Source: Phycisphaeraceae bacterium
GTDB taxonomy: Bacteria > Planctomycetota > Phycisphaerae > Phycisphaerales > Phycisphaeraceae
Direction of reading: 5' to 3'
Length of the DNA stretch: 61,269 nt
Assembly (NCBI GenBank): GCA_020831765.1
Contig: JAFIFY010000192.1
Coordinates: forward strand, 1 to 61,269
The notes beneath the pieces are model-generated. The model was not told where the DNA came from and ran no database searches. It was given only the letters and a program-made list of their open reading frames with translations. Position numbers and translations under genes: made by a program. Numbering within the stretch: the first letter of the stretch is position 1; each line of letters starts with the position of its first letter. Below are positions 8,201 to 21,575 of the stretch, piece after piece.

Positions 8201-9793
8201 ATGGCCAAAGTGGAAAACTGGCTCTCGGCGATCGGCACGCGCCTGGCGATACTGGTCGCGTTCAGTCTTCTGCTGTTGGTTATCGGTCTGCTGGCATGGT
8301 GGCGAGGCCAGCCGCCGCCGGTCGAAGCCATCGCGGGCGAGGAGTATGAGCTTCCCGTGGTGGTGAGTCTGCCTCTGAACCGGGTGGCCCATCAGCCCAT
8401 TGAACGGTTCTACGGCATCCTCGAACCCGAGGCGGAACTGGAGATGCGCTTCAGTCTTCCGGGGCGGATCCACCGTTACGGCACTGTCCATGTCGAACGA
8501 CAGAACCCGGACTCCGCACACGGCCAGACCGAATTGGTCGAGCAGCCCCTGCGCGAGAGCGCCCGCGTTCGCAAGGGCCAGACCCTGGCATGGCTGGAGC
8601 CGCAGCGTTATGAAGTCGCGGTTCGCTCAGCGCAAGTGCGCGTCGAACAGGCCCAGGCCAACAAGGCCGAAGCGCAGGCCGTGACCGAGGAACGACGCGC
8701 TGCCGTGCTCAGCGCTCGGGTGCAACTGGCCGAGGCTGAATCCAATCGTGATCAGCAACGCCGCCTTCACGAGCGCAATGTCATCACGCAGGCGGAACTC
8801 GATCGACACGAACGCGCCTGGGAGCAGGCCGAGGCGATGTACCAGGCAGCGCAGGCGCTTCATCGGGCCGCGGAGTCCCGGCGTGACGCGGCCAACCATC
8901 AGCTCCACCTTGCGCGTGAAGCCTTGGAGGAGGCACGTATCCAGACCGAGGATGCGACGCTGGTCGCGCCATGGGATGGTGTCATCGCCGCGCTGCCCTA
9001 CCAGGTGGGCCAGAATGTCAGTCCGCGGGAAACCGTGATCCGCATGGTCTCCATGGACCGTGTAAAGCTGGTGTTGCAGGTGCCCCAGAGCCGGATCGCG
9101 GCGTTTGGCGATTCGATCGGTGGCGAGGTGGAAGTTCGGATCAGCGCGTTGGAATCCCGGGCAGCGCGGAATCCCCGATACAGCCGTGATGCGCGGCCGC
9201 GCATGGGCAGGGTGGCGATGGTCCAGCCCGCCGCCGATCCGGTGACGCGGCTCTTCCGTGTCGAGATCGAACTGGACAACACCGATGGCTCTCTGGCCCC
9301 GGGCATGATGGCCCAGGCGCATCTGCCCGGCGATACGGTGCAGGCGGTCCGCCTGCCGCTTGAAGCCGTGCGCTATCGGGATCAGCAAGCATGGGCGTAT
9401 TTCATTCAACGCGGCGCCCGGATCGGCCTTCCGCTGGGGGCGATCGGGGCCGATCGCGACCTGGTCCTGGAGGACATCGATCTGGCCCGCGCGGTGAATC
9501 TTGATCGGCCGATCGAAGAGAATGATGCCGTGCTGGTCACTCATCTGCCGCGCAACATGCAAGGCGTGGTGGCCGGCCATCCACGCGATCTGACCGACGG
9601 GCGACCGGTTCGCACGATCGAGTTGCCGGAACTGACTGGCCAGGCCATGACCGGCTACATGCCCGACGCGATGATGGAGAAAGATGACCTTGGGGCAGGC
9701 GGTCATTCAGACGGCGAACCGGGCAGCGCCGGGGACGGTGCTTCTCCCGGCGGCGGGATCACTTCCGGGGGCGGGGGCGGGGGTGAGCGATGA
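8201..9793 (+). CDS. RND efflux periplasmic adaptor (HlyD/MFP family)
   Basis: Membrane-fusion protein of 530 residues linking an inner-membrane RND pump to an outer-membrane exit duct. An N-terminal anchor helix (about 12-32) is followed by split lipoyl/barrel-sandwich halves: KGQTLAWLEPQRYEV, and DATLVAPWDGVIAALPYQVGQ. A long coiled-coil hairpin lies between them (about 145-250). The C-terminal domain ends in a Gly-rich tail encoded by the TTCCGGGGG repeat. The stop overlaps the pump gene start (ATGA), so the two are translationally coupled. A TTG at 8195 is an alternative start. No outer-membrane factor gene is adjacent. Confidence 0.88.
   Translation: MAKVENWLSAIGTRLAILVAFSLLLLVIGLLAWWRGQPPPVEAIAGEEYELPVVVSLPLNRVAHQPIERFYGILEPEAELEMRFSLPGRIHRYGTVHVERQNPDSAHGQTELVEQPLRESARVRKGQTLAWLEPQRYEVAVRSAQVRVEQAQANKAEAQAVTEERRAAVLSARVQLAEAESNRDQQRRLHERNVITQAELDRHERAWEQAEAMYQAAQALHRAAESRRDAANHQLHLAREALEEARIQTEDATLVAPWDGVIAALPYQVGQNVSPRETVIRMVSMDRVKLVLQVPQSRIAAFGDSIGGEVEVRISALESRAARNPRYSRDARPRMGRVAMVQPAADPVTRLFRVEIELDNTDGSLAPGMMAQAHLPGDTVQAVRLPLEAVRYRDQQAWAYFIQRGARIGLPLGAIGADRDLVLEDIDLARAVNLDRPIEENDAVLVTHLPRNMQGVVAGHPRDLTDGRPVRTIELPELTGQAMTGYMPDAMMEKDDLGAGGHSDGEPGSAGDGASPGGGITSGGGGGGER
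9763..9783. repeat. TTCCGGGGG-type repeat at the adaptor gene 3' end
   Basis: TTCCGGGGG followed by CGGGGG units, located in the last codons of the adaptor gene and encoding a poly-Gly tail. The first 14 bases match the copy at 3682 exactly. Confidence 0.5.
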
Positions 9794-12700
9794 TGGGGTC
9801 TGGGCGCTTGCTGGCGCGGCCGCGGATCATTGTGCTGGTGGCGGTGTTGTGTGTGGCCACCGGCTGGGTGGCGATCACCACGTTGCCCAAGGAGCGCACG
9901 CCGCGCATCAAGCTGCCGGTGGTGCAGGTGCTGGTGGTGAATCCGGGCGCCGGTCCGGCCGTGAACGAGACCGAGATCATTCGGCCCATCGAGGAGGAAT
10001 CGGCGCGGCTGGGCGGGTTGAGGCGTCATGGGCGGGTGATGTCCCAGGCCACGGCCGACGCCGCGCTGGTTCAGTTCATCTTCGATGATCAAACCCGCAT
10101 CGAGGAGGCGAGGCGGGATGTGGAGAACCTGGTCAACCGTGTGCGTGGCCGGTTCCCTGAGCCGGCGCAGCGCAATCCCGGACCCACCATCAGCGAGATC
10201 GCCTTCGAGGATTGGCCGATCGTCCAGGTCTTTCTGGTCGGGGGGGACAGCGGCGATCATCGTCGCCGCGTGGCCGATTCACTGGCCCGGCGGTTGGAGG
10301 GTGTCGGGGGCGTTCAGAACGTGGGCCGATTCGGCGGCCTGGAGCCGGAAGTCCGCGTGGAAGTGCATCCGCATCTGATGGCCGGCTTCGGTCTGTCGTT
10401 TGATGATGTGGCCCACGCCCTGGTCACCGCCAATGATGCATCGCCCGGCGGCACGCTGGAACCGGGCGAGGGTTTCGATCTGGGCGTACGTCTGGGCGGT
10501 CGCCTGGCATCATTGGAAGAGATCGAGCAGGTCTCGTTTCCCATCGCCGGTGGTCGGGTGGTTCGGCTTGAGGACTTCGCGGATGTGCATGCCAACCACA
10601 AGCCGCGCCGCAGCATCGCACGTTACGACAGTCAGGATGCGGTGGTGCTGCTGATCCAGCCGGGACGGGATATCGATGTCCACCGCACAGCGCGTGAAGC
10701 TGAAGAGGTGGTGGCCGATTTCATCGCCGGGGGTCACGGACAGAATCTGGAGATCGGCGTCGTTCGATCGCAGGCCCGCGAGATCGAAGACATGCTGGGC
10801 CAGCTTGGGGCCAGCGCGATCTATGGCACGATGCTGGTGATGCTGCTGCTCTGGCTGGCGATGGGCTGGCGTAACGCATTGCTGGTGGGCATGAGCGTGC
10901 CCATGGCCTTGCTGGGCGCGGCGGCGCTGGGCTGGATGGCCAAACAGAGCTTCGCCCCGAACCTGGCGATCAACAACATGACCCTTTTCGGCACGATCCT
11001 GGTCATCGGGCTGGTCGTGGACGGTTGCATCATCGTGGCCGAGAACATCGATCGCCACCGGCAACTGGGCCGCAGCGCCTTCGAAGCGGCGTGTCGAGGC
11101 GTGGATGAAGTCGGCCCATCGCTGATCTCGGCCTATCTGACGACGTTCGCGGCGTTCGCGCCGATGTTTCTCATCCGCGGGGTGATGGGTGATTATCTGG
11201 AGCTTCTTCCCCTGGTGGTCATGCTGGCCCTGATCGCCGCATCCATGACCGATCACTACCTGTTGCCGATGTTGACGATGTACCTGGGCCGATCGCGGGC
11301 TCAAGGCAAGGAACGGGAGCGGCTGGAAGAGCAGATCGACCCGGAGCTTACGCCCGAGGTGATCGAAATCCGGGATGCCCGGCGTTTCGTCGAGCGCAGC
11401 CGCGCGGCGAGAATCTATGGCCGCGCCATGACCCTGGCACTTCGACACCGCTTCATGGTTCTGGGCATGGCCCTGGTGCTGATGCTGATCCCACTGGGAT
11501 TATTCGGGATGGGTGCGATCGGCATGGAGTTCTTCCCCGAGACCGATGTGCCGATCATCGAGGTCGATTTCGATCTGCCGCTGGGCTCATCGCTCGAGCA
11601 ACGGACCATCGCCGCGGCCGGAGTGCTGGAAGCGGCGGTCATGCGGGCGGTGCGGCATGAAGAGTGGCATCAACCGATCGGCGGCGGGCCGAGATTGCGG
11701 CCGGTGACAACGCTGGGCGATCCGGCAGCGCTAAGCACCAATCTGGATTTTGAAAGCGGCACCGGCCCGGAGTTCGGCAAAATCTATATCGAACTGGAAC
11801 TGGCCGAACACCGGCGACGGTCGGCATCGGAAATCCGTCGGGCGATCCGGGCGGAAATTCAACATCGGATGCGGTCGGACGCGAACCTGGCCGGGCTCCG
11901 CTACCGCGTCCACTCACCGTCGGAGGGGCCACCGGCAGGCTCAGCGTTGCTTGTCCGCGTGTTGGGGCAGGATGAGACAACCCTGGACACGCTGGCGCGA
12001 CGGGCTGAAGCGATCGAAGAAGCGCTGCGTCGCGTTCCGGGCGTCACCGGCATCAGCAACGATTTCCGCGTACGTCCGCAGCTTCGGGCCGCTCCGGATG
12101 TCGCGGTAAGCGGTTTGTATGGCGTGACGCGCCGGCAACTTGGCACTTCGGTCGCCTATCTGCTTGAAGGCGTGCGAGTCGGTGAAGTGGACTTCGGCGG
12201 CGATGAGATGCGCGATCTTCGGCTTCGTGCCGCGCCCGAGTTCCGGCGTACGCTCGAGGATATCCAGATCATGCCCATCCGCGCCCAATCCGGCGCGGTG
12301 GTCACGTTCGGCGATGTCGCTCAGCTTCACCGCACCGAGGAAGCCGACATCATCCGGCGCTACGACCGGCGGAGGGTGATCAATATCCGGGCTGACCTGA
12401 ACGAAGGCGTGCTAGCTGATGCGGTTCGCCTGGCGCTGCTGGAGCAGCTTGATCCAGGTGCCGCCGCCGCCATGAGCCGAACACCGGGCCGCGCCGGACG
12501 GATTCTCCACAGCGACAGCGAAGTGATCGTTGAGTTCGGCGGTGAAACGGAAGTGCGCGATGATGCGGTGGCTGACTTGCAGATGGCACTGCTGCTGGCC
12601 ATGGGCGCGATGCTGCTCGTCCTGACGCTGCATTTCAATCGGTTCCTGCAACCGCTGATCGTGCTGCTGAGCGTGCCGCTGAGCCTGGTGGGCGTCTTTC

Positions 12701-13119
12701 TGGGCCTGATGATCTGCGGCATGGCGTTTTCGGTGGCGGCGCTGATCGGTGTCGTGGCGCTTGCCGGGATCGTGGTCAACGATTCGATCGTGCTGGTCAG
12801 TTTCATCAATCGAATGCGGGCCATGGGCCTGACGATCGAAGAAGCGGTCATCCGCGCGGGTCAACTCCGCTTGAGAGCCATCACCCTGACCACCATGACG
12901 ACCATCGGCGGGCTCCTGCCGCTGTCCTTGAACATTTCCGGCGGCGGAGAGTTCTGGCAACCCCTGACCATCACCATGATGTTCGGGCTCGCGGCGGCGA
13001 CCGTGCTGGAATTGCTCGTGATTCCCCTGCTCTGCTACATGACCGATCGAGCACCGGCCGCGCCTCAAAGCCAATCATCCCACACCGTCGCTCCGATCGA
13101 GCACGCTCAAGCCGCCTGA
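9790..13119 (+). CDS. RND efflux permease (AcrB/HAE-like)
   Basis: Proton-driven inner-membrane pump of 1109 residues, the normal length for the family. The N-terminal helix LLARPRIIVLVAVLCVATGW, two large periplasmic loops and two blocks of membrane helices are visible. Helix 4 reads IGLVVDGCIIVAENIDRH, with Asp-Gly where AcrB has the Asp-Asp pair. The helix 10 region reads GIVVNDSIVLVSFINRMR, with Asn where AcrB has its proton-relay Lys. Both are seen in other RND branches, so the pump need not be inactive, but drug specificity cannot be assigned. It starts within the adaptor stop codon (ATGA). Confidence 0.93.
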   Translation: MMGSGRLLARPRIIVLVAVLCVATGWVAITTLPKERTPRIKLPVVQVLVVNPGAGPAVNETEIIRPIEEESARLGGLRRHGRVMSQATADAALVQFIFDDQTRIEEARRDVENLVNRVRGRFPEPAQRNPGPTISEIAFEDWPIVQVFLVGGDSGDHRRRVADSLARRLEGVGGVQNVGRFGGLEPEVRVEVHPHLMAGFGLSFDDVAHALVTANDASPGGTLEPGEGFDLGVRLGGRLASLEEIEQVSFPIAGGRVVRLEDFADVHANHKPRRSIARYDSQDAVVLLIQPGRDIDVHRTAREAEEVVADFIAGGHGQNLEIGVVRSQAREIEDMLGQLGASAIYGTMLVMLLLWLAMGWRNALLVGMSVPMALLGAAALGWMAKQSFAPNLAINNMTLFGTILVIGLVVDGCIIVAENIDRHRQLGRSAFEAACRGVDEVGPSLISAYLTTFAAFAPMFLIRGVMGDYLELLPLVVMLALIAASMTDHYLLPMLTMYLGRSRAQGKERERLEEQIDPELTPEVIEIRDARRFVERSRAARIYGRAMTLALRHRFMVLGMALVLMLIPLGLFGMGAIGMEFFPETDVPIIEVDFDLPLGSSLEQRTIAAAGVLEAAVMRAVRHEEWHQPIGGGPRLRPVTTLGDPAALSTNLDFESGTGPEFGKIYIELELAEHRRRSASEIRRAIRAEIQHRMRSDANLAGLRYRVHSPSEGPPAGSALLVRVLGQDETTLDTLARRAEAIEEALRRVPGVTGISNDFRVRPQLRAAPDVAVSGLYGVTRRQLGTSVAYLLEGVRVGEVDFGGDEMRDLRLRAAPEFRRTLEDIQIMPIRAQSGAVVTFGDVAQLHRTEEADIIRRYDRRRVINIRADLNEGVLADAVRLALLEQLDPGAAAAMSRTPGRAGRILHSDSEVIVEFGGETEVRDDAVADLQMALLLAMGAMLLVLTLHFNRFLQPLIVLLSVPLSLVGVFLGLMICGMAFSVAALIGVVALAGIVVNDSIVLVSFINRMRAMGLTIEEAVIRAGQLRLRAITLTTMTTIGGLLPLSLNISGGGEFWQPLTITMMFGLAAATVLELLVIPLLCYMTDRAPAAPQSQSSHTVAPIEHAQAA

Positions 13120-13258
13120 AGCGATCGCATCCCACGGAAAGCCTGATCCGGGGCTGACCATGCGATAATCCATCGCCTTGGACGTTCCACCCTACCGCAT
13201 CCAATCCGCGGCGATGGACGCCAGTGTCCACCCCTTGCCATCCTCGGAGAGCTCGCCC

Positions 13259-14899
13259 ATGCCAACCATCGCCAGAGTCTTACTGCCTGCCTTGTTAATG
13301 ATGGGGTTTTCGGCCGCGCCTGCATGGGCCGATCTGGTGTTCCAATATCGGCTCGAGGTTCCCGCCGGTGGTGAGCGGACGACCGAAGTGTTTCTCTGGA
13401 TCCCCCACGAAGCCGGGACCATTCGGGGCGCGGTCGTCGCGGGAATGACCTCGGCCGAACGGGAGCTGGTGAAAGATGCGGGTGTTCGCCAGGCATGTGC
13501 CGATCACCAACTGGCGATCGTGTTTTTCAAGTCCGGACTTGGGGCGGTGAACATCGAGCAGGTGCTTGGATCCCTTGCCGAGCTCTCGGGTTACTCGGAA
13601 CTGAAGGTCGCGCCGCTTCTGTTCATCGGACACTCGGCCGGTGGCCCGCAGGCCAAGAACGCGGCCGTGGCCATGGCGGACCGATGTTTCGGATTGATTC
13701 AATCGCGCGGCGGTGGGCCGTGGCATGGCGAGCATCAGGATCAGCCGCTTCCCCCGGTTCCCGAGGGCATTCCATGCCTGATGCTGGTCGGGCAGTTCGA
13801 TGAGTTCGGCGGCTGGATGCGGGATGAGGAAGGCAATGAACCGGCATGGGAGCAGCCTCGCGATGCGATGGTCCACTACCGCACGCGATATCCCGACAGC
13901 CTCCTGGCCATGATCGTCGAGCCCGGCGCCGGCCACTTCGCCGGCTCTCCGGTCAGCGCCCGGTTCGCGGCCATGTTCATCGCCAAGTCGGCTGAAAATG
14001 TGATTCCCCGGTCATGGGACCCGGCCTCCGGCCACGCTGCCCGACTCCATCGACCCAAAGTCGAAAGCGGCTGGCTGACGCCATTGAATCTACGCGATGC
14101 CGATCGGCCCGCGCCCGCACCGTTCGAGGATTACACCGGACCACGCAGCGCGGCCAACTGGCATTTCGACCGCGAATTCGCCGAGGCCGCCGCGCAACTT
14201 CATGCCCAAATGGGACGCAAGGACCAGTTCATTCGGTGGAACGAACGATACTGGGTCGATGCCGGTGTTCGCTACTACTTCCACGGCTTCAATTGGATTG
14301 ATGATGGGCAGAGCTTCCGGCTGCGATTCGAATACGCCGATCGTTACCCCACCCAGCACAACAACCAGGGGCCGCGTTGGGTCAGGGCCGGCGAACCGGT
14401 GGGCAACAGTGGGACGCCCATTCGGCTCAGGCGGGTCAACGGCCCGCTGATCGTCACCGGACCGGACACCATGCGCATCCACTACGATGCCCTGACGCCG
14501 GCCACCGAACATGTTCGGCCGACGTTTCTGGCCTACAGCGAAGGCGACGAAACCTATCGTCATACGGAAGTGGCGGGCATGTTCCCCCGTGGTTTTCGAG
14601 GGTTGACGCAGGGCCGGCAACAGATCATCGATTTTCCGCAGCCCCAGAATATGCGCATCGGCGATGCACCCCAAGCGCTCCATGCCACCAGCGATGCGGA
14701 CCTGCCCGTGGGCTATCACGTCTCCTTCGGCCCGGCCGTTGTCGAAGACGGTCGGTTGCGGATCGCCCAGGTGCCGCAACGAGCGAAGTTTCCCATCCGA
14801 ATCGGCATCATGGCCCATCAATTCGGCAGCGGGGTGGAACCGCACGTTCGCACGGCCGCGCCCGTCGAGCGGATCATCACGCTGCATGGTCCGCGCTGA
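13259..14899 (+). CDS. Secreted alpha/beta-hydrolase-like protein
   Basis: A 546-residue exported protein. A signal peptide spans residues 1-24 (ending SAAPAWA). The nucleophile elbow is LLFIGHSAGGPQAKNA, a GxSxG serine-hydrolase motif, and GAGHFAGS could hold the catalytic His. The domain resembles the PHB-depolymerase/esterase group. About 250 further residues, rich in Tyr/Trp, follow and match nothing I recognise. ATG 13259 is chosen because the signal peptide starts there and GGAG lies 9 nt upstream; the frame is also open from a TTG at 13178. No PEP-CTERM tail is present. Substrate unknown. Confidence 0.8.
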   Translation: MPTIARVLLPALLMMGFSAAPAWADLVFQYRLEVPAGGERTTEVFLWIPHEAGTIRGAVVAGMTSAERELVKDAGVRQACADHQLAIVFFKSGLGAVNIEQVLGSLAELSGYSELKVAPLLFIGHSAGGPQAKNAAVAMADRCFGLIQSRGGGPWHGEHQDQPLPPVPEGIPCLMLVGQFDEFGGWMRDEEGNEPAWEQPRDAMVHYRTRYPDSLLAMIVEPGAGHFAGSPVSARFAAMFIAKSAENVIPRSWDPASGHAARLHRPKVESGWLTPLNLRDADRPAPAPFEDYTGPRSAANWHFDREFAEAAAQLHAQMGRKDQFIRWNERYWVDAGVRYYFHGFNWIDDGQSFRLRFEYADRYPTQHNNQGPRWVRAGEPVGNSGTPIRLRRVNGPLIVTGPDTMRIHYDALTPATEHVRPTFLAYSEGDETYRHTEVAGMFPRGFRGLTQGRQQIIDFPQPQNMRIGDAPQALHATSDADLPVGYHVSFGPAVVEDGRLRIAQVPQRAKFPIRIGIMAHQFGSGVEPHVRTAAPVERIITLHGPR

Positions 14900-14966: not shown

Positions 14967-16688
14967 CTACGGAAGCATGAGTTGATCGATGAAGCACTCT
15001 TCGAAGCCGGGGTCGAGGTTCAGCTCGACAGTTTCGATGCGCCCGGCGATCGCGGCCAATTCATCCAGCAAGGCACAGTCAAGCAGCGTTACATAGGCGG
15101 CGGCAAGGGAGCCGTTGCCGATCACCTCCACCTGATCGGCACGAAAGCCGGGGAGCAGGCCGCAGGCGATGGCATGGTCAACGTTCAGATGCATGCCAAA
15201 CCCGCCGGCGAGATAGAGACGATCCACATCCGATGCCGTGATGTCTGCTCGGCGCATGAGGGTCAGGATGCCCGCCGCGATGGCCGCCTTGGCCGGCAGC
15301 AGGTGGGCGATATCGGCCTCGGTCAGGATGATGTCGCCGTCGGCTGTGGGCCTGCCGTGACCGCCCCGCTTCCGGGCCACGATCATCGCCAGTCCACCGG
15401 GCGTCTTATCGATCAGCCCCGCATCCAACGCATCGGTCAACTCATCATTGATCCGGCCGCGACGATCAAGCAAACCCGCGGCTCTGCCCTGGGCCAGGAG
15501 GTCAATGCATGCCGAGCCACACAAACCGATCGGGACCAGGCGCCCATCGCCGATCCGCTCGATTTCCAAGCTCCACGGCTGCTGGTGAATCACCACTCGA
15601 CTGATCGCTCCTTCGGTGGCCCGAACGCCGCACGTAAGCCTTCCGCCCTCGAACGCCGGCCCGGCGGCGGTCGCGCAGCCCAGGAGTCGATCGCCATGGC
15701 GAAGCACCACTTCCCCGTTGGTGCCGACATCGACCAGCATGGCCGTCCGGCCAGAATACGCCATCCCGCTGATCAGACAGTCGCCAACCAGATCAGCACC
15801 CAGGTAAGCAGCGCTTGAAGGCAGCAACCACACGGGCACATCGCCTTCGTGGATGCCCAGTTGCCGGGCGCTGATCTGCCGTTGGTCCAGGAACACCGGT
15901 TTGAACGGTGCGATCCCCAGTGGCGTCGGATCAACGCCCGCCAGCAGGTGGAGCATGGTGGTGTTGCCCGCGCAGGTTATCGCCTTGAGGCTTCCGGGGA
16001 TTGCGCCCGCCTCAGTCAGGGCCCTGGCGAGCATCGGCGCAAGCGTCTCTTTGATCAGAGCGCTTTGCAGCCGACCGGCGGCCTTCACATCCATCGCGCA
16101 AAGATTGATCCGGGTCAGGACATCATCGCCAAGATGCATCTGGCGGTTGAAATCGGTGGATCGGGCAACGATTCTTCCATCGGCAAGATCTACCAGGGCC
16201 AGCGCGACCGTGGTGGTACCGATATCGATCGCCGCGCCAAGCGCACCGGTGGTCGAAGCCACGATCGGGTCATGCCCGATGGGCACCAGCACGCTGAACT
16301 GATCAACCACTCGAGGGCGATGGGCCAGAACGGACCTTGCCGGCAGGCGCAATTCGACTTCACCCGCCGCATCCAACCCGGAGCCCCCGAAACCGCCATC
16401 ACTCCCGGAACGCCCAACAGCCCCGGAAAGCTGATGCCTGCAAGCTCGAAGCTGAACCGGTTGACCATCGGTCTGCGTCCACGTTGCCTGACTCTCATTC
16501 CAAAGGCGGCCCGAGACCAACTCGCACAGACATCCCTGGCACATATCGCGTCCGCCACACCGGGTGTTGAGCGGCAGCCCCTCGTGACGAAGCAACTGCG
16601 TCAATGGCTGCGATAATCGATCACCACTGACCTCGATCTTCAGCGATGTATCCGGAGCATGGACATGCAGGCGAACGCTCGGGCTCAT
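14967..16688 (-). CDS. RACo-type reductive activator of corrinoid proteins (ASKHA domain)
   Basis: A 573-residue protein. The N-terminal [2Fe-2S] ferredoxin domain has Cys44, Cys50, Cys53 and Cys83 in the CX5CX2CXnC arrangement (RCGGRDMCQGC; RACRHQ). From about residue 150 an ASKHA/actin-like ATPase fold follows: GAAIDIGTTTVALALVDL, LVDVGTNGEVVL, LYLAGGFGMHLN. This is the architecture of RACo/RamA proteins, which use ATP to drive reduction of inactive Co(II) corrinoid back to Co(I). It begins inside the last codon of the DUF1638 gene (ATGA overlap). The divergent corrinoid protein is the obvious client. Confidence 0.9.
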   Translation of the reverse strand: MSPSVRLHVHAPDTSLKIEVSGDRLSQPLTQLLRHEGLPLNTRCGGRDMCQGCLCELVSGRLWNESQATWTQTDGQPVQLRACRHQLSGAVGRSGSDGGFGGSGLDAAGEVELRLPARSVLAHRPRVVDQFSVLVPIGHDPIVASTTGALGAAIDIGTTTVALALVDLADGRIVARSTDFNRQMHLGDDVLTRINLCAMDVKAAGRLQSALIKETLAPMLARALTEAGAIPGSLKAITCAGNTTMLHLLAGVDPTPLGIAPFKPVFLDQRQISARQLGIHEGDVPVWLLPSSAAYLGADLVGDCLISGMAYSGRTAMLVDVGTNGEVVLRHGDRLLGCATAAGPAFEGGRLTCGVRATEGAISRVVIHQQPWSLEIERIGDGRLVPIGLCGSACIDLLAQGRAAGLLDRRGRINDELTDALDAGLIDKTPGGLAMIVARKRGGHGRPTADGDIILTEADIAHLLPAKAAIAAGILTLMRRADITASDVDRLYLAGGFGMHLNVDHAIACGLLPGFRADQVEVIGNGSLAAAYVTLLDCALLDELAAIAGRIETVELNLDPGFEECFIDQLMLP

Positions 16689-17482
16689 GGCGCGGCCACT
16701 CCATCCGGTTCACCCCCGATGTTCTGCCCATCGATGGTGACGGCCGTGAGAATGTTTTCATCACCGGTCATCTCGATCGCCTGCCCCGGCTCGACGATCA
16801 CGAAGCGGTCTTGATCCCAACGGCCGGCCAGGAGATCGAGCAGAAGCTCTCGATCGCCGCGCAACCGTTCGAACGACCAGTTCAGCCACCTGGCACATTG
16901 GCGCGTTTGCTCGATGCCTGCTTCGATCGCCCCGCAACCCATGTCCACCCAGGCGGCGTTCCGGTATGAGCGATACCAGCTCTGCTCGGTTTCCATGAGG
17001 TATTGGGCGTTATCCGGTCCGTATTGCGCTGTATAGCGTTCGGCGAGTTGGCGATATCGCTCCGGCCCGGGCGGCAGATGGCAGCGATTCCAGCCCGGCG
17101 AATACCAGTAAGTGCCCGGATGCTCTCGCACATACCGGTCATACCGATCCCGTGAGCCCAGCAGGATGGTGATGCAGTCATGGGCGCGTGGCATCGCCAG
17201 CCTGCATCGCCGGGGAGAGATGCCCGCCAATCCACCGCTGCACAGGCCGTAGACCAGGGCAATCCGGGTAATCCCCGGCTGCGCTTCGAGCGTCTGGACC
17301 GCTTCCTGAAGCACCGATCGTAACCTGGCCGGCTCATTGTGCAGGCCCTGCTCCATAAACGTAATCACTTTATTTTCAGACTCTTGAGACAACGCAAACT
17401 CGACCTCGTCCCGCAGGACATCGCAGGCGATGACGCCAAGGCCGGAATATGATGCTGCGGTGGCCGCGATGTTCGGGCTCAT
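16685..17482 (-). CDS. DUF1638 family protein
   Basis: A 265-residue cytosolic protein of the DUF1638 family. Typical stretches are LGVIACDVLRDEVEFAL, RIALVYGLCSGGLAGI, MPRAHDCITILLGSRDRY and QSWYRSYRNAAWVDMG. The conserved Cys residues and the PRAHDC motif suggest a metal or corrinoid-linked role. The biochemical function is not known to me. Such genes are often found beside corrinoid methyltransferases. It leads the two-gene leftward operon with the RACo-like gene and diverges from the corrinoid protein gene, sharing a 128-bp promoter region. Confidence 0.82.
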   Translation of the reverse strand: MSPNIAATAASYSGLGVIACDVLRDEVEFALSQESENKVITFMEQGLHNEPARLRSVLQEAVQTLEAQPGITRIALVYGLCSGGLAGISPRRCRLAMPRAHDCITILLGSRDRYDRYVREHPGTYWYSPGWNRCHLPPGPERYRQLAERYTAQYGPDNAQYLMETEQSWYRSYRNAAWVDMGCGAIEAGIEQTRQCARWLNWSFERLRGDRELLLDLLAGRWDQDRFVIVEPGQAIEMTGDENILTAVTIDGQNIGGEPDGVAAP

Positions 17483-17574
17483 TGGCGTTTGCCCTGTTCT
17501 GGTGATCCGGGCGGGTGCTCAGGCAGGAAATCGGCATCCGTTTCGTTTGCCCGCCCGGCAATCATCGGATAAAA

Positions 17575-17588
17575 GTATACGCTTATAC
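17575..17588. promoter_or_regulatory. Inverted repeat GTATA-CGCT-TATAC between the divergent corrinoid operons
   Basis: Two 5-bp arms around a 4-bp spacer, 23 nt before the corrinoid protein start codon, in an AT-rich patch that could also hold a minus-10 box. It may be an operator or just promoter sequence. It is the only obvious symmetric element in the divergent region. Confidence 0.3.
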
Positions 17589-17610
17589 GCTCTCTGGAAA
17601 GGGATTCGCC

Positions 17611-18243
17611 ATGAAGACGCTCGAGCAACTCACCGAGGCCGTTGGGCGAGGCGATCGTGAAGCGGTGTCCAGCCTGATCGAATCCGCCATGATGCAGGAG
17701 ATCGGACCTAAGGCGATCCTCGATGCCCTCGTCGCCGGCATGGACGATATCGGGCGGCGATTCAAGGCCAACGAGGTGTTCGTCCCCGAAGTGCTCATCG
17801 CGGCCCGAGCCATGAAGACCGCCATGGCCAAGCTGGAACCGATTCTGTCCGAAGCCGGCATACGACCGGCCTTCACGGCGGTCATTGGCACGGTCGAGGG
17901 TGATCTTCATGACATTGGCAAGAACCTGGTGGCAATGATGTGGCGCGGGGCGAATTTCGATGTGATCGACCTGGGCACCAATGTATCGGCCCAACGCTTC
18001 GTTGTCGCCGCGCGTGAGCATAAGGCCTCGATCATCGGCCTCTCGGCTCTGCTGACCACGACCATGCCGGCCATGCGTCAAACCGTTCAAACGCTCCGCG
18101 AGGCTGATCTGAACGGAGCCAAGATCGTCATCGGCGGAGCGCCCATCACCCAGTCGTTCGCCGACCAGATCGGAGCCGATGGTTTTGCGCCCGATGCGGC
18201 CAGCGCTGTGGATAAAGTTCGGCAACTGGTCGGCGCAGCATAG
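17611..18243 (+). CDS. Methyltransferase corrinoid protein (MtaC/MtbC-like)
   Basis: A 210-residue two-domain cobamide carrier. Residues 1-85 form the helical cap domain (IGPKAILDALVAGMDDIGRRF, then FVPEVLIAARAMK). The Rossmann B12-binding domain follows, with the DxHxxG motif at Asp98, His100 and Gly103 (GDLHDIGKNLVAMM). His100 would be the lower cobalt ligand. GLSALLTTTMPAM and IVIGGAPI complete the site. ATG 17611 has GGAAAGG upstream and gives the usual start. It carries the methyl group between partner enzymes and heads the rightward operon with two UroD-family proteins and a homocysteine methyltransferase. Confidence 0.93.
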   Translation: MKTLEQLTEAVGRGDREAVSSLIESAMMQEIGPKAILDALVAGMDDIGRRFKANEVFVPEVLIAARAMKTAMAKLEPILSEAGIRPAFTAVIGTVEGDLHDIGKNLVAMMWRGANFDVIDLGTNVSAQRFVVAAREHKASIIGLSALLTTTMPAMRQTVQTLREADLNGAKIVIGGAPITQSFADQIGADGFAPDAASAVDKVRQLVGAA

Positions 18244-18310
18244 GCGCTTCGATCCGCCGAAATTCGATCGATCCACCACGCCTCACCGCCCTACCGAAAG
18301 CGCAGTCGCC

Positions 18311-19396
18311 TTGCCCAAGACCCTGACCAGCCAGGAACGTGTCCATCGGATGTTCGAGCGCCAGGACCATGATCGGGTGCCCCGTCATGACACGTTCTGG
18401 TGGGAAACCATCGAGCGATGGCGCGGCGAAGGACTTGAAGACGGACAAAATGGTGCGCTGGCGGAACTGGAGAGCGACTTTCACTGTCTGTGCTGGAACT
18501 GGCCCGCGCCCTGGCCCGGCCGGGAAGAGTTGATCGAGGAGGATGAGCGAACACGCATCATCATTGATCAGTTCGGCCAGAAAGCCCGATATTGGAAGGG
18601 ACGATCCGGCACGCCCGAGCACCTGGGTTGGGCCTGCCAGTCCTCGGATGATTGGCATGGGAGCATCCGACGGCAATTCCTTGAAACACCGCTTCATGTT
18701 CAAATTGATGAGGTCGCCAAGGCGTTCGATCGGGCCCGCGCCCAGAACCAATGGACTTACCTGTCTGGAGCCGAGTCGTTCGAGATGACTCGGAAGCTCA
18801 TGGGCGATGAGGTCACTCTGATCGCCATGGCGACCGAACCGGAATGGATCATCGATGTCTCGAAGGTCCATACCGACCTGTTGATTCGCGATTACCAGGC
18901 GATTCTCGACGCCGGCATCCAACCGGATGGGCTGTTCATCTACGGCGACATGGCGTTCAACCACGCGACGATGTGTTCACCGGCGATGTACCGCCAGTTG
19001 ATCTGGCCGGACCATAAGCGGCTGGCTGATTTCGCCCATGAGAACGGCATGAAGATGATCTACCACACCGATGGCAACATAAACGGTGTGCTGGATTTAT
19101 ACATCGAAGCGGGATTCGACTGCGTGCAGCCGCTCGAGGCCAAGGCGGGCATGGATGTCCGTGCCCTTGCTCCGAAGCTGGGTGATCGGCTGGCGCTGTT
19201 CGGCAATGTGGATGTGATGGTCATGGCCACTAACGATCTGAGTCACATCGAGGCGGAACTGGTCGCCAAGCTCAAGGCGGGCATGGCCACTCGGGGCTAT
19301 GCCTATCACAGCGACCATTCGATACCGCCGTCGGTGAGCTGGCAAACGTATCGCTCGCTGATCCGCCTCCTTGATCAACACGGCAACTATCACTGA
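18311..19396 (+). CDS. UroD-family (MtaA/CmuA-like) methyltransferase 1
   Basis: A 361-residue TIM-barrel of the uroporphyrinogen decarboxylase superfamily. Next to a corrinoid protein, such enzymes act as methyltransferases. The zinc-site region reads MIYHTDGNINGVLDLYIEAG, with Asp where MtaA-type enzymes have the Cys of HxC. HSDHSIPPSVSWQTY closes the barrel. The loss of the Cys argues against simple MtaA chemistry with a thiol acceptor. The likely start is TTG 18311 (LPKTLTSQERV), where conserved sequence begins; the frame is open further upstream into the preceding gene. It may be the donor-specific enzyme of the locus. Confidence 0.85.
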   Translation: MPKTLTSQERVHRMFERQDHDRVPRHDTFWWETIERWRGEGLEDGQNGALAELESDFHCLCWNWPAPWPGREELIEEDERTRIIIDQFGQKARYWKGRSGTPEHLGWACQSSDDWHGSIRRQFLETPLHVQIDEVAKAFDRARAQNQWTYLSGAESFEMTRKLMGDEVTLIAMATEPEWIIDVSKVHTDLLIRDYQAILDAGIQPDGLFIYGDMAFNHATMCSPAMYRQLIWPDHKRLADFAHENGMKMIYHTDGNINGVLDLYIEAGFDCVQPLEAKAGMDVRALAPKLGDRLALFGNVDVMVMATNDLSHIEAELVAKLKAGMATRGYAYHSDHSIPPSVSWQTYRSLIRLLDQHGNYH

Positions 19397-19464
19397 CCAG
19401 CGGACCGAACGCGCGGTCATGACCGGAGCATCGGGGCAACCGCCCCCAAACACGAACTGAGACC

Positions 19465-20664
19465 ATGATGAACCATCGAGAGCGCTTTCTGGCCACGATG
19501 AGCTATCAGCCGCGCGACCGTTCGCCGCTGTATGACTTCGGCCTGTGGGACGAGACCCCCGGAGCATGGAGACCTCAGGGATTACCCGACGGTATCGATC
19601 GATCCAACGCCGCGCGGTTCTTCGGGCTCGATGCCGGGCTGGGTGGCGGTGAACCCGAAGGTTGGTCGGGCGTGGCGGGTGTCAGCCTTTGTCCGGGGTT
19701 TCCGACGGCGATCCTGGATGATGATGGCGATGAATACACCCAGCGCCAGTCCGATGGGGTCATCGTCCGCAAGCAGCGGTCGAGCGTCTCAATTCCCATG
19801 CATATCGGACACACGCTCGTGGATCGGGAAAGCTGGGCCGAGCACTACCTGCCCCGGCTGAATCCCGATACCGCGGCGCGATATCCATCGGATGATGATC
19901 CACAATGGAGCCGATGGAGGAATCCGCATCGCGATACACCGCTTTTTGCCCACGGTGGCAGCCTCTTTGGCAGGCTTCGCGACTGGATGGGGCTCGAGAA
20001 CATCTCCATGGTGGTCTACGACGACCCCGGCTGGTTCGAATCCATGGTGAGCACCAAGGCCGATCTGATCGTCACCGTCCTGAAGCGGATGTTCGATCGG
20101 GGCGTCCACATCGATGCGATCGGCATGTGGGAGGATATGTGCTACAACGCCGGCCCGCTGCTCTCACCGGCGCACTTCAAGCGATTCCTCGTGCCCCACT
20201 ACCGCCGCATCGCTGAGCTTGCCCGGGCTCACGGCTGCAACATCATCTGGGTCGATTGCGATGGATGCATCGATGCCCTGATCCCGCTGTGGCTCGATGC
20301 GGGCATCAACTGCATGTTTCCGATTGAAGTCGGGACATGGAGCGCTGACCCGATCACCATGAGGAAGCGATACGGACGCGATCTGCTGCTCATGGGCGGA
20401 TTCGATAAGCGAATCCTGGCCCGCGATCCCCAAGCCATCGATCACGAAATCCTTCGCCTCGCCCCGCTTGTCGAGGAAGGCGGCTTCATCCCGATGCCCG
20501 ATCACCGCGTCCCACCGGATGTGCCCCTGGCCAACTACATCCATTACACCCAAAGCGCCAGGAAAATCTGGGGAGGAGGCGTCAACCTCGAGTCAGCGCC
20601 CGTCGAGTCGATCATCCGTGCGAGGCAGGTAACCCCGAACCCTATCCAGAGGACCCACCCATGA
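19465..20664 (+). CDS. UroD-family methyltransferase-like protein 2
   Basis: A 399-residue second member of the UroD superfamily, clearly divergent from its neighbour. It begins MNHRERFLATMSYQPRDR, the common opening of this group (ATG 19465 or 19468). The site corresponding to HxC reads IIWVDCDGCIDALIPLWLDAG, with Asp-Cys-Asp. PDHRVPPDVPLANYIHY ends the barrel. Relatives are common in planctomycetes and related bacteria, and most have no assigned substrate. Its 3' end overlaps the homocysteine methyltransferase by 4 bp, so the two are co-translated. Confidence 0.85.
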   Translation: MMNHRERFLATMSYQPRDRSPLYDFGLWDETPGAWRPQGLPDGIDRSNAARFFGLDAGLGGGEPEGWSGVAGVSLCPGFPTAILDDDGDEYTQRQSDGVIVRKQRSSVSIPMHIGHTLVDRESWAEHYLPRLNPDTAARYPSDDDPQWSRWRNPHRDTPLFAHGGSLFGRLRDWMGLENISMVVYDDPGWFESMVSTKADLIVTVLKRMFDRGVHIDAIGMWEDMCYNAGPLLSPAHFKRFLVPHYRRIAELARAHGCNIIWVDCDGCIDALIPLWLDAGINCMFPIEVGTWSADPITMRKRYGRDLLLMGGFDKRILARDPQAIDHEILRLAPLVEEGGFIPMPDHRVPPDVPLANYIHYTQSARKIWGGGVNLESAPVESIIRARQVTPNPIQRTHP

Positions 20665-21575
20665 ACCAACGCTTTCAGGACCGACTCGACGCGGGCATTC
20701 TGTTCTGTGATGGGGGCATGGGAACCCAGTTGATGGCCGCGGGCATGAACCTCGGTCAATGCGCGACGCTTTTCAATGTCGAGCGTCCCGAGGTGGTCAG
20801 CGACATTCATCGCCGCTACGCCGAGGCGGGTTGCGATCTGCTGACGGTCAATACCTTCCAGGGTTCAGCCACGGCGCTGGCGCAACACGGCCTTGAGGGC
20901 CGCGTCGAGGAGCTGAACGAAGCTGGAGCACGACTTGCCCGGCAGGTGGCTGACGACCTTGCGAAGGCGGATCGACCCGCGCCGCTGGTGTTGGCCGATA
21001 TCGGCCCGTTCGGCGGATTCCTCGAGCCGCTGGGTGAAACGAGTCGGGATGAGCTGACTCGGTTGTTCACCCAGCAGCTTGCCGCGCAGCAGCGCGGCGG
21101 CGCCGATGCGGTGATCATCGAGACGATGAGTGATGCCACTGAGATGGATGTGGCGCTTCGGACAGCGCGTGCGCTGGGCGATTGGACGCTGATCGCCAGC
21201 TTCGCGTTCGAGAGAGGTGCCGGCGGCGGTTTTCACACCATGATGGGCCTGGACGTGGAGGCGGCCGTGCAGGGCGCGCTGGAGTCGGGCGCGGATGTCG
21301 TGGGCGCCAATTGCGGAAGTTCTCTCTCCCTGGATGATTATGTCACCCTCGCCGAAAGGCTGGTCGCGGCCGCGGGCGATCATCCGGTGATTATCCAGCC
21401 CAATGCCGGCACGCCGGTGTTGATCGAGGATCGTTCGGTCCACCCGGCCACGCCCGAACAGATGGCCGCGCTGGTGCCCCGCCTGATCGACGCCGGCGTC
21501 CGCATCATCGGGGGCTGCTGCGGCACGACGCCCGAGCATCTTCGAGCGATGAGCACCATGAAACCGGCCGTTTAG
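20661..21575 (+). CDS. Homocysteine S-methyltransferase family protein
   Basis: A 304-residue zinc-dependent TIM-barrel of the type forming the N-terminal homocysteine domain of MetH, and also BHMT and MmuM. Motifs: FCDGGMGTQLMAAG at the N-terminus, DLLTVNTFQGS, ADVVGANCGSS with the first zinc Cys, and RIIGGCCGTTPEHL with the two other zinc Cys residues. It has no pterin or B12 domain of its own. In this operon the acceptor would be homocysteine and the donor methyl-corrinoid, giving methionine. AGAGGA lies 8 nt before the ATG. It is the last gene of the corrinoid operon. Confidence 0.92.
   Translation: MNQRFQDRLDAGILFCDGGMGTQLMAAGMNLGQCATLFNVERPEVVSDIHRRYAEAGCDLLTVNTFQGSATALAQHGLEGRVEELNEAGARLARQVADDLAKADRPAPLVLADIGPFGGFLEPLGETSRDELTRLFTQQLAAQQRGGADAVIIETMSDATEMDVALRTARALGDWTLIASFAFERGAGGGFHTMMGLDVEAAVQGALESGADVVGANCGSSLSLDDYVTLAERLVAAAGDHPVIIQPNAGTPVLIEDRSVHPATPEQMAALVPRLIDAGVRIIGGCCGTTPEHLRAMSTMKPAV

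Follow-up and report, generated by a model that had tools for sequence, protein, structure and literature searches.

How does a corrinoid protein obtain its methyl group, and what receives it, when its gene lies beside those for a homocysteine methyltransferase and two proteins of the uroporphyrinogen decarboxylase (UroD) superfamily, with no pterin-binding domain at the locus? This question is raised by a six-gene locus on contig JAFIFY010000192.1 of Phycisphaeraceae bacterium (assembly GCA_020831765.1). The whole stretch analysed, of 61,269 nucleotides, is called the window here; it is contig C130 of a 4.71-Mb genome that is 98.38% complete with 0.06% contamination. The open reading frame list and a Pfam search place all six genes in the window on the strands given in Table 1, as the initial annotation had described them: genes for a RACo-like activator and a DUF1638 protein diverge from those for the corrinoid protein, UroD-1, UroD-2 and a free-standing homocysteine S-methyltransferase (HMT).

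We consider it moderately probable that the locus encodes the core of a split cobalamin-dependent methionine synthase in which two UroD-superfamily methyltransferases replace the folate-side module. UroD-1 and/or UroD-2 would demethylate an O-methyl or, less likely, an N-methyl compound and load the methyl group onto the Co(I) of the corrinoid protein, which would pass it to zinc-bound homocysteine on the HMT to form methionine, while RACo and the DUF1638 protein would re-reduce the carrier once oxidised to Co(II). The locus would run alongside a normal MetH, with a role in demethylation or methyl salvage, and hence would not be the sole source of methionine. The initial annotation had proposed a similar route from an unknown donor through a UroD protein and the corrinoid protein to homocysteine; its outline stands, but not its status as the methionine synthase that the cell needs, as a full MetH is present.

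Kinship of the core

The corrinoid protein shares 54-59% identity with those of all seven compared relatives that lack a full-length MetH, against 29% with the MetH of its own genome. The HMT clusters with 18 other free-standing HMTs, apart from its own MetH and five HMT-MTHFR fusions (support 94/94, just short of the program's star). Judged from these identities and this grouping at the sequence level, the core is of the split-synthase type and belongs with the split methionine synthases of Phaeobacter and Ruegeria, which were established by mutants (PMC5764234, PMC12478193). The nearest PDB entry to the HMT is the Thermotoga MetH fragment 1q7m. In NCBIfam the corrinoid protein came closest to models of the MtgC type and the HMT to PRK08645 and PRK07534, with every score below the cut-off of its model (206.2 against 338 for PRK07534). 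The latter model appears to cover the family of Bmt of S. meliloti, described as MtgE, the module that handles homocysteine in a split system (PMC12478193).

The split synthase of Phaeobacter inhibens and MtgBCDE of Ruegeria pomeroyi likewise comprise a free corrinoid protein, a free HMT, a RamA/RACo-like activator and a DUF1638 protein (PMC5764234, PMC12478193), and in Ruegeria demethylation and the formation of methionine share a single corrinoid protein (PMC12478193). The window has the corresponding free protein with B12-cap and B12-binding domains, the free PF02574 module and the RACo-like and DUF1638 proteins. The two known systems, however, have a folate module, MtgD, and the MttB-family protein MtgB for betaine (PMC5764234, PMC12478193), whereas the window has two UroD-superfamily proteins and no pterin module at the locus, and its genome encodes a complete MetH. 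Since a free pterin module is lacking, the locus is filed as a variant of the split synthases and not as a member; an MttB-family donor is lacking as well. It is not a canonical MetH either, in which homocysteine, pterin, B12 and activation domains share one chain; here separate genes are found. Dehalococcoides core-MetE also performs a methylcobalamin-dependent, folate-free homocysteine methylation, but it is of the MetE type (PMC7005905), whereas the enzyme in the window belongs to PF02574 and has a corrinoid protein of its own.

Most details of the gene models were in keeping with the initial annotation. The corrinoid protein, which matched PDB 1y80 (E 5e-51), carries the D-x-H-x-x-G motif, and the HMT has a putative three-Cys zinc site (C218, C286, C287). 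Stops and starts overlap by 4 bases between RACo and DUF1638 and again between UroD-2 and HMT. RACo matched PDB 3zyy (E 2.2e-79) and also 4c1n, and its Cys 44, 50, 53 and 83 form a [2Fe-2S]-type set; its PF00111 score of 19.7 bits lies just below the cut-off of 21. The DUF1638 protein is probably the partner of RACo in corrinoid reactivation. The corrinoid frame is open from GTG 17515 with homology beginning only at ATG 17611, the most likely start. The UroD-1 frame is open from 18179, which is probably not the true start, since its relatives start only around residue 36-48; the best candidate is TTG 18311, and UroD-1 would then not overlap the corrinoid gene.

Table 1. Genes of the corrinoid locus, with positions in the window.
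Feature	Position	Strand	Domains and motifs
RACo-like [2Fe-2S]/ASKHA activator	14967..16688	-	PF14574 (E 2.2e-71), PF17651 (E 1.9e-43)
DUF1638 protein	16685..17482	-	PF07796 (E 6.1e-40)
Corrinoid protein, 210 aa	17611..18243	+	PF02607 (B12 cap), PF02310 (B12-binding), D-x-H-x-x-G
UroD-1, UroD-superfamily, candidate methyl donor enzyme	18311..19396	+	PF01208 URO-D (E 3.6e-16)
UroD-2, UroD-superfamily, candidate second donor enzyme	19465..20664	+	PF01208 URO-D (E 1.7e-14)
Free-standing homocysteine S-methyltransferase (HMT)	20661..21575	+	PF02574 (E 5.5e-62)

Candidate methyl donors

FolP and MetH are the only pterin-binding proteins in the whole genome. A third pterin match, on contig C186, was considered as a possible cut-off folate methyltransferase and rejected: it is the end of FolP, seen a second time because the ends of two contigs overlap (141 identical bases). 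Neither MttB (PF06253) nor MtaB was found in this genome; among the 12 genomes searched, they are present in two and three, respectively. Given that only FolP and MetH bind pterin and that donors of the MttB and MtaB types are lacking, UroD-1 and/or UroD-2 are likely to supply the methyl group. The initial annotation, which had described a split corrinoid/homocysteine system without a pterin-binding domain, is thus borne out at the locus, where the UroD proteins are the only donor candidates.

These results bear on a simpler explanation, in which the locus is a plain split methionine synthase working on methyl-folate, MetH lends its pterin part in trans and the UroD genes belong to another pathway. 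The core does resemble split synthases, and in relatives the pterin piece lies apart from the other pieces, as reported for Phaeobacter (PMC5764234). We nevertheless regard this explanation as improbable: the genome has no free pterin methyltransferase, MetH does that job already, UroD-2 and HMT overlap by 4 bases, and UroD genes occur in all ten corrinoid loci with a free HMT.

Searches of PDB by sequence were of little use for the UroD proteins (no match for UroD-1 and a single weak one, 4wsh, E 0.003, for UroD-2), and both were placed by fold search. The UroD-1 model, built with 17 sequences, reached a mean predicted local distance difference test score (pLDDT) of 91.0 and has MtaA (4ay7) as its top fold match (E 4e-11, 15% identity). 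The UroD-2 model (12 sequences, pLDDT 82.5) also has the UroD fold, with uroporphyrinogen decarboxylases first and MtaA at rank 14. The structures of CdmB and MtoB were not among the PDB matches. As the initial annotation had noted, neither protein keeps the H-x-C zinc motif, which reads H-T-D...H in UroD-1 and D-C-D...H in UroD-2. The putative sites are conserved, H254/D256/H338 of UroD-1 (numbered from 18305) in 17 of 17 aligned sequences and D264/D266/H347 of UroD-2 in 12 of 12. Reference columns were those of UroD3 of locus L040 (His, Cys, Cys); this alignment is distant and its third column less sure, the genome's own HemE also having His there.

The predicted fold is that of methyltransferase I in the UroD-type O-demethylases MtvB, OdmB, VdmB and MtoB and in the chloromethane system CdmBCA, which likewise combine a UroD-fold enzyme with a free corrinoid protein and an activating enzyme (PMC13222342). 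Those systems pass the methyl group to pterin through a dedicated methyltransferase II, which is missing here, the window having an HMT instead. O-methyltransferases of the superfamily are reported to carry carboxylates or non-ligands in place of one or both Cys (PMC10418091), and CdmB to function without zinc (PMC13222342). The putative carboxylate and His ligands of UroD-1 and UroD-2 agree with the former rule and, together with the zinc-free CdmB, favour an oxygen donor over a thiol. An O-methyl compound is accordingly our tentative choice of donor, at somewhat less than even chance.

The same residues speak to S- or Se-methyl salvage, as in type 1 mlp clusters. Those clusters likewise contain several UroD-superfamily genes, a corrinoid protein and an activator without a folate methyltransferase (PMC10418091), but their UroD proteins have His-Cys-Cys zinc sites and are close to coenzyme M methyltransferases (PMC10418091), whereas the window has His-Asp-His and Asp-Asp-His. 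As the His-Cys-Cys site is found in neither UroD protein, we judge such a role very improbable.

Related loci and their acceptor modules

Relatives of UroD-1 (E <= 1e-40) were found in 17 of the 201 genomes of the order, or 8 of 176 good-quality ones, and in 18 named loci from Phycisphaeraceae, other Planctomycetota, Verrucomicrobiota and one Anaerolineae metagenome-assembled genome. Nine of these 18 loci have a corrinoid gene, three being the same records as L038, L039 and L045. Among 24 UroD-1 regions taken from the other 16 genomes of the order, seven have a corrinoid gene beside UroD-1 (L038, L039, L040, L041, L042, L044 and L045).

The arrangement of the window, with RACo-DUF1638 divergent from the corrinoid protein, UroD-1, UroD-2 and HMT, recurs in L038 (G151) and L040 (G073), both with extra UroD-like genes in between, and in L044 (G145) without DUF1638. 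In Verrucomicrobiota, L069, L072 and L082 show the same layout, with the UroD genes standing in rows and UroD-2 more distant; L071 resembles them without a DUF1638 match, and L078 without a free HMT. At least eight UroD-type frames surround one corrinoid protein in these five loci, as if a single carrier served many substrates. The initial annotation had named a full-length metH combined with unconserved gene order as the finding that would speak against it; MetH was found, but the order is kept in several genera, partly in Verrucomicrobiota. In other related loci a pterin methyltransferase replaces HMT or MtaB is added. As examples, L081 has RACo-DUF1638 beside corrinoid protein-MtaB-UroD-1-HMT, while the Pfam search found in L041 (G094) corrinoid protein-MTHFR-like-pterin methyltransferase-amidohydrolase-UroD-1-UroD-1'-UroD-2 with no HMT, and in L039 (G091) corrinoid protein-MtaB and several UroD genes in a row, without an acceptor gene nearby.

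A corrinoid profile scan gave 34 matches and, after removal of L067, L068 and L076 (the same records as L038, L039 and L045), 31 loci, which had been chosen by UroD-1 or DUF1638 and include one fusion protein (L167). A free HMT, counted as a frame without MTHFR match (the stop-free frames of L072 and L082 being longer than the gene), is present in ten loci, each with at least one UroD gene. A pterin methyltransferase is present in five, weakly in L142 and L151 (44-47 bits); no locus has both, and 16 have neither, several of which run into contig ends (L042, L045, L124). Mutual exclusion of the two acceptors is only suggested by these counts.

This distribution also suits a demethylation system whose real acceptor lies elsewhere, the accepting enzyme being, for instance, a UroD protein or the folate module of MetH, with the HMT as an occasional outlet. 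Five of the 31 loci have a pterin methyltransferase and an MTHFR-like gene instead of HMT, over half have neither acceptor, and L152 has both acceptors next to DUF1638 with no corrinoid gene in the stretch. Against it, the HMT overlaps UroD-2 and retains its three zinc Cys, and the genome has no spare pterin enzyme; we therefore think an acceptor elsewhere unlikely. It is quite likely, in our estimate, that the HMT accepts the methyl group from this corrinoid protein, with odds lowered by the fused HMTs of relatives.

Several features of individual loci were also recorded. In L134 (8486-10897, G026), DUF1638 and RACo are fused in frame (804 aa), a fusion that, at the level of predicted proteins, links DUF1638 to corrinoid activation; it agrees with the nearly identical presence patterns reported in alpha-Proteobacteria (PMC5764234). 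In L167 (10150-11859, G447) a frame of 570 aa carries a URO-D domain C-terminal to two B12-binding domains. This fusion is presumably CmuA-like in its parts. In L041, L090, L140, L142 and L151 the neighbours of the corrinoid gene include an amidohydrolase gene together with genes for an MTHFR-like protein and a pterin methyltransferase. L086 (5586-9029, G064) has a free HMT that overlaps a DUF1638 gene, and a divergent RACo gene, but its stretch contains no corrinoid gene. L080, L083 and L053 each have a UroD-1 homologue and no corrinoid gene in the stretch; L-rhamnose isomerase is close by in L080 and L083, with alcohol dehydrogenases confirmed in L083, and a PhyH oxygenase adjoins the homologue in L053. 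The neighbours of such stray homologues, which also include enolase-superfamily genes (L051, L075), were too mixed to point to a donor. No riboswitch was found in the window, L067, L081 or L078 at Rfam gathering thresholds, the search giving one tRNA in L067. Finally, a 573-aa frame without Pfam match (13178-14899) adjoins the locus in the window, preceded by an AcrB-family efflux gene (9790-13119).

Methionine synthases and the role of the locus

The genome of the window (G000) encodes a MetH of 1218 aa on contig C93 with PF02574, PF00809, PF02607, PF02310 and the activation domain PF02965, and only a partial PF01717 match (43 bits) on the MetE side. The idea that the locus replaces a missing MetH was thus rejected. 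PF02574 also occurs in frames of 928-1225 aa in 10 of the 11 other genomes searched, and these ten include all six that, besides the window genome, carry a free HMT. G091 (L039, L068; 95% complete), which carries MtaB and a row of UroD genes, lacks both PF02574 and PF01717 and has one pterin-binding protein; no methionine synthase is recognisable in it.

A survey of 392 genomes of the phylum, with free HMT defined as a best frame below 450 aa at E <= 1e-50, found DUF1638 in 45, free HMT in 46 and both in 24. Free HMT is present in 24 of 45 DUF1638 genomes vs 22 of 347 others (odds ratio 16.9, p 6e-14, shared ancestry being ignored). Besides G000, 16 of the 24 genomes with both were searched for MetH, which exceeded the cut-off in three (G362, G491, G254) and lies in two adjoining frames in G366. 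The other 12 have separate homocysteine, corrinoid and pterin pieces only; MetE is full in G391 and G440, a weak partial match in G555 and missing in nine. The initial annotation had asked whether genomes with all six genes lack metH and metE; that the locus stands in for metH is not supported, as the window genome has MetH and the six others mentioned above have a long MetH-type frame. In G253, G471 and G274, neither a long-frame HMT nor MetE was seen, making the free HMT a clear candidate for methionine synthase there. A long-frame HMT alone was found in 18 genomes at E <= 1e-50, none with DUF1638; this is not evidence, as G488 has DUF1638 together with a fusion below the cut-off.

Several observations weigh against a UroD-fed route to methionine in the window. 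The complete MetH makes a second route redundant. The UroD proteins are just 13-16% identical to MtaA in the fold alignment, and three further UroD-family genes exist in the genome besides HemE and the two at the locus, so that a donor enzyme from outside it is possible; one of them, on C179, has the same H/D/H residues. The corrinoid gene is absent within the stretch from 17 of the 24 UroD-1 regions. The lack of loci with both acceptors is not significant (1.6 expected), and the 16 loci with neither, L152 and the disregard of common descent in the co-occurrence test add to the doubt. Moreover, nine of the 12 genomes without full MetH (G307, G323, G338, G391, G440, G465, G488, G508, G555) also carry a second, long-frame HMT (616-1368 aa), which in the one case examined, G488 (L148), is an HMT-MTHFR fusion beside a pterin methyltransferase. 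The pterin pieces of the nine are weak (48-73 bits), and either HMT may be the one that serves there.

The UroD/corrinoid/homocysteine combination was not described in any title or opening abstract listed in searches of open-licence PubMed Central papers on UroD proteins and demethylation in Planctomycetes (which gave no paper), cobalamin-dependent demethylation of methylated polysaccharides, and homocysteine as acceptor in corrinoid demethylation. A broader and more speculative proposal, doubtful at present, is a methoxy-to-methionine route in which UroD demethylases would act on compounds such as methylated sugars or further methoxy compounds of algae or plants, and the corrinoid carrier would hand their O-methyl groups directly to homocysteine, bypassing folate. 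One conserved corrinoid core would then have been fitted, across Planctomycetota and Verrucomicrobiota, with exchangeable modules on the donor side (UroD, MtaB) and on the acceptor side (HMT, pterin methyltransferase).

The RACo fusion seen in one relative strengthens the link between DUF1638 and the reactivation of corrinoid proteins. If the proposed split synthase with UroD donors is correct, the demethylation of outside compounds would be coupled to methionine and S-adenosylmethionine without folate, by an enzyme family different from the MttB proteins known for such coupling in Ruegeria, and with donor and acceptor modules swapped on one corrinoid core. Part of the UroD family in Planctomycetota and Verrucomicrobiota, which is large and mostly uncharacterised, would also gain a role that can be tested.

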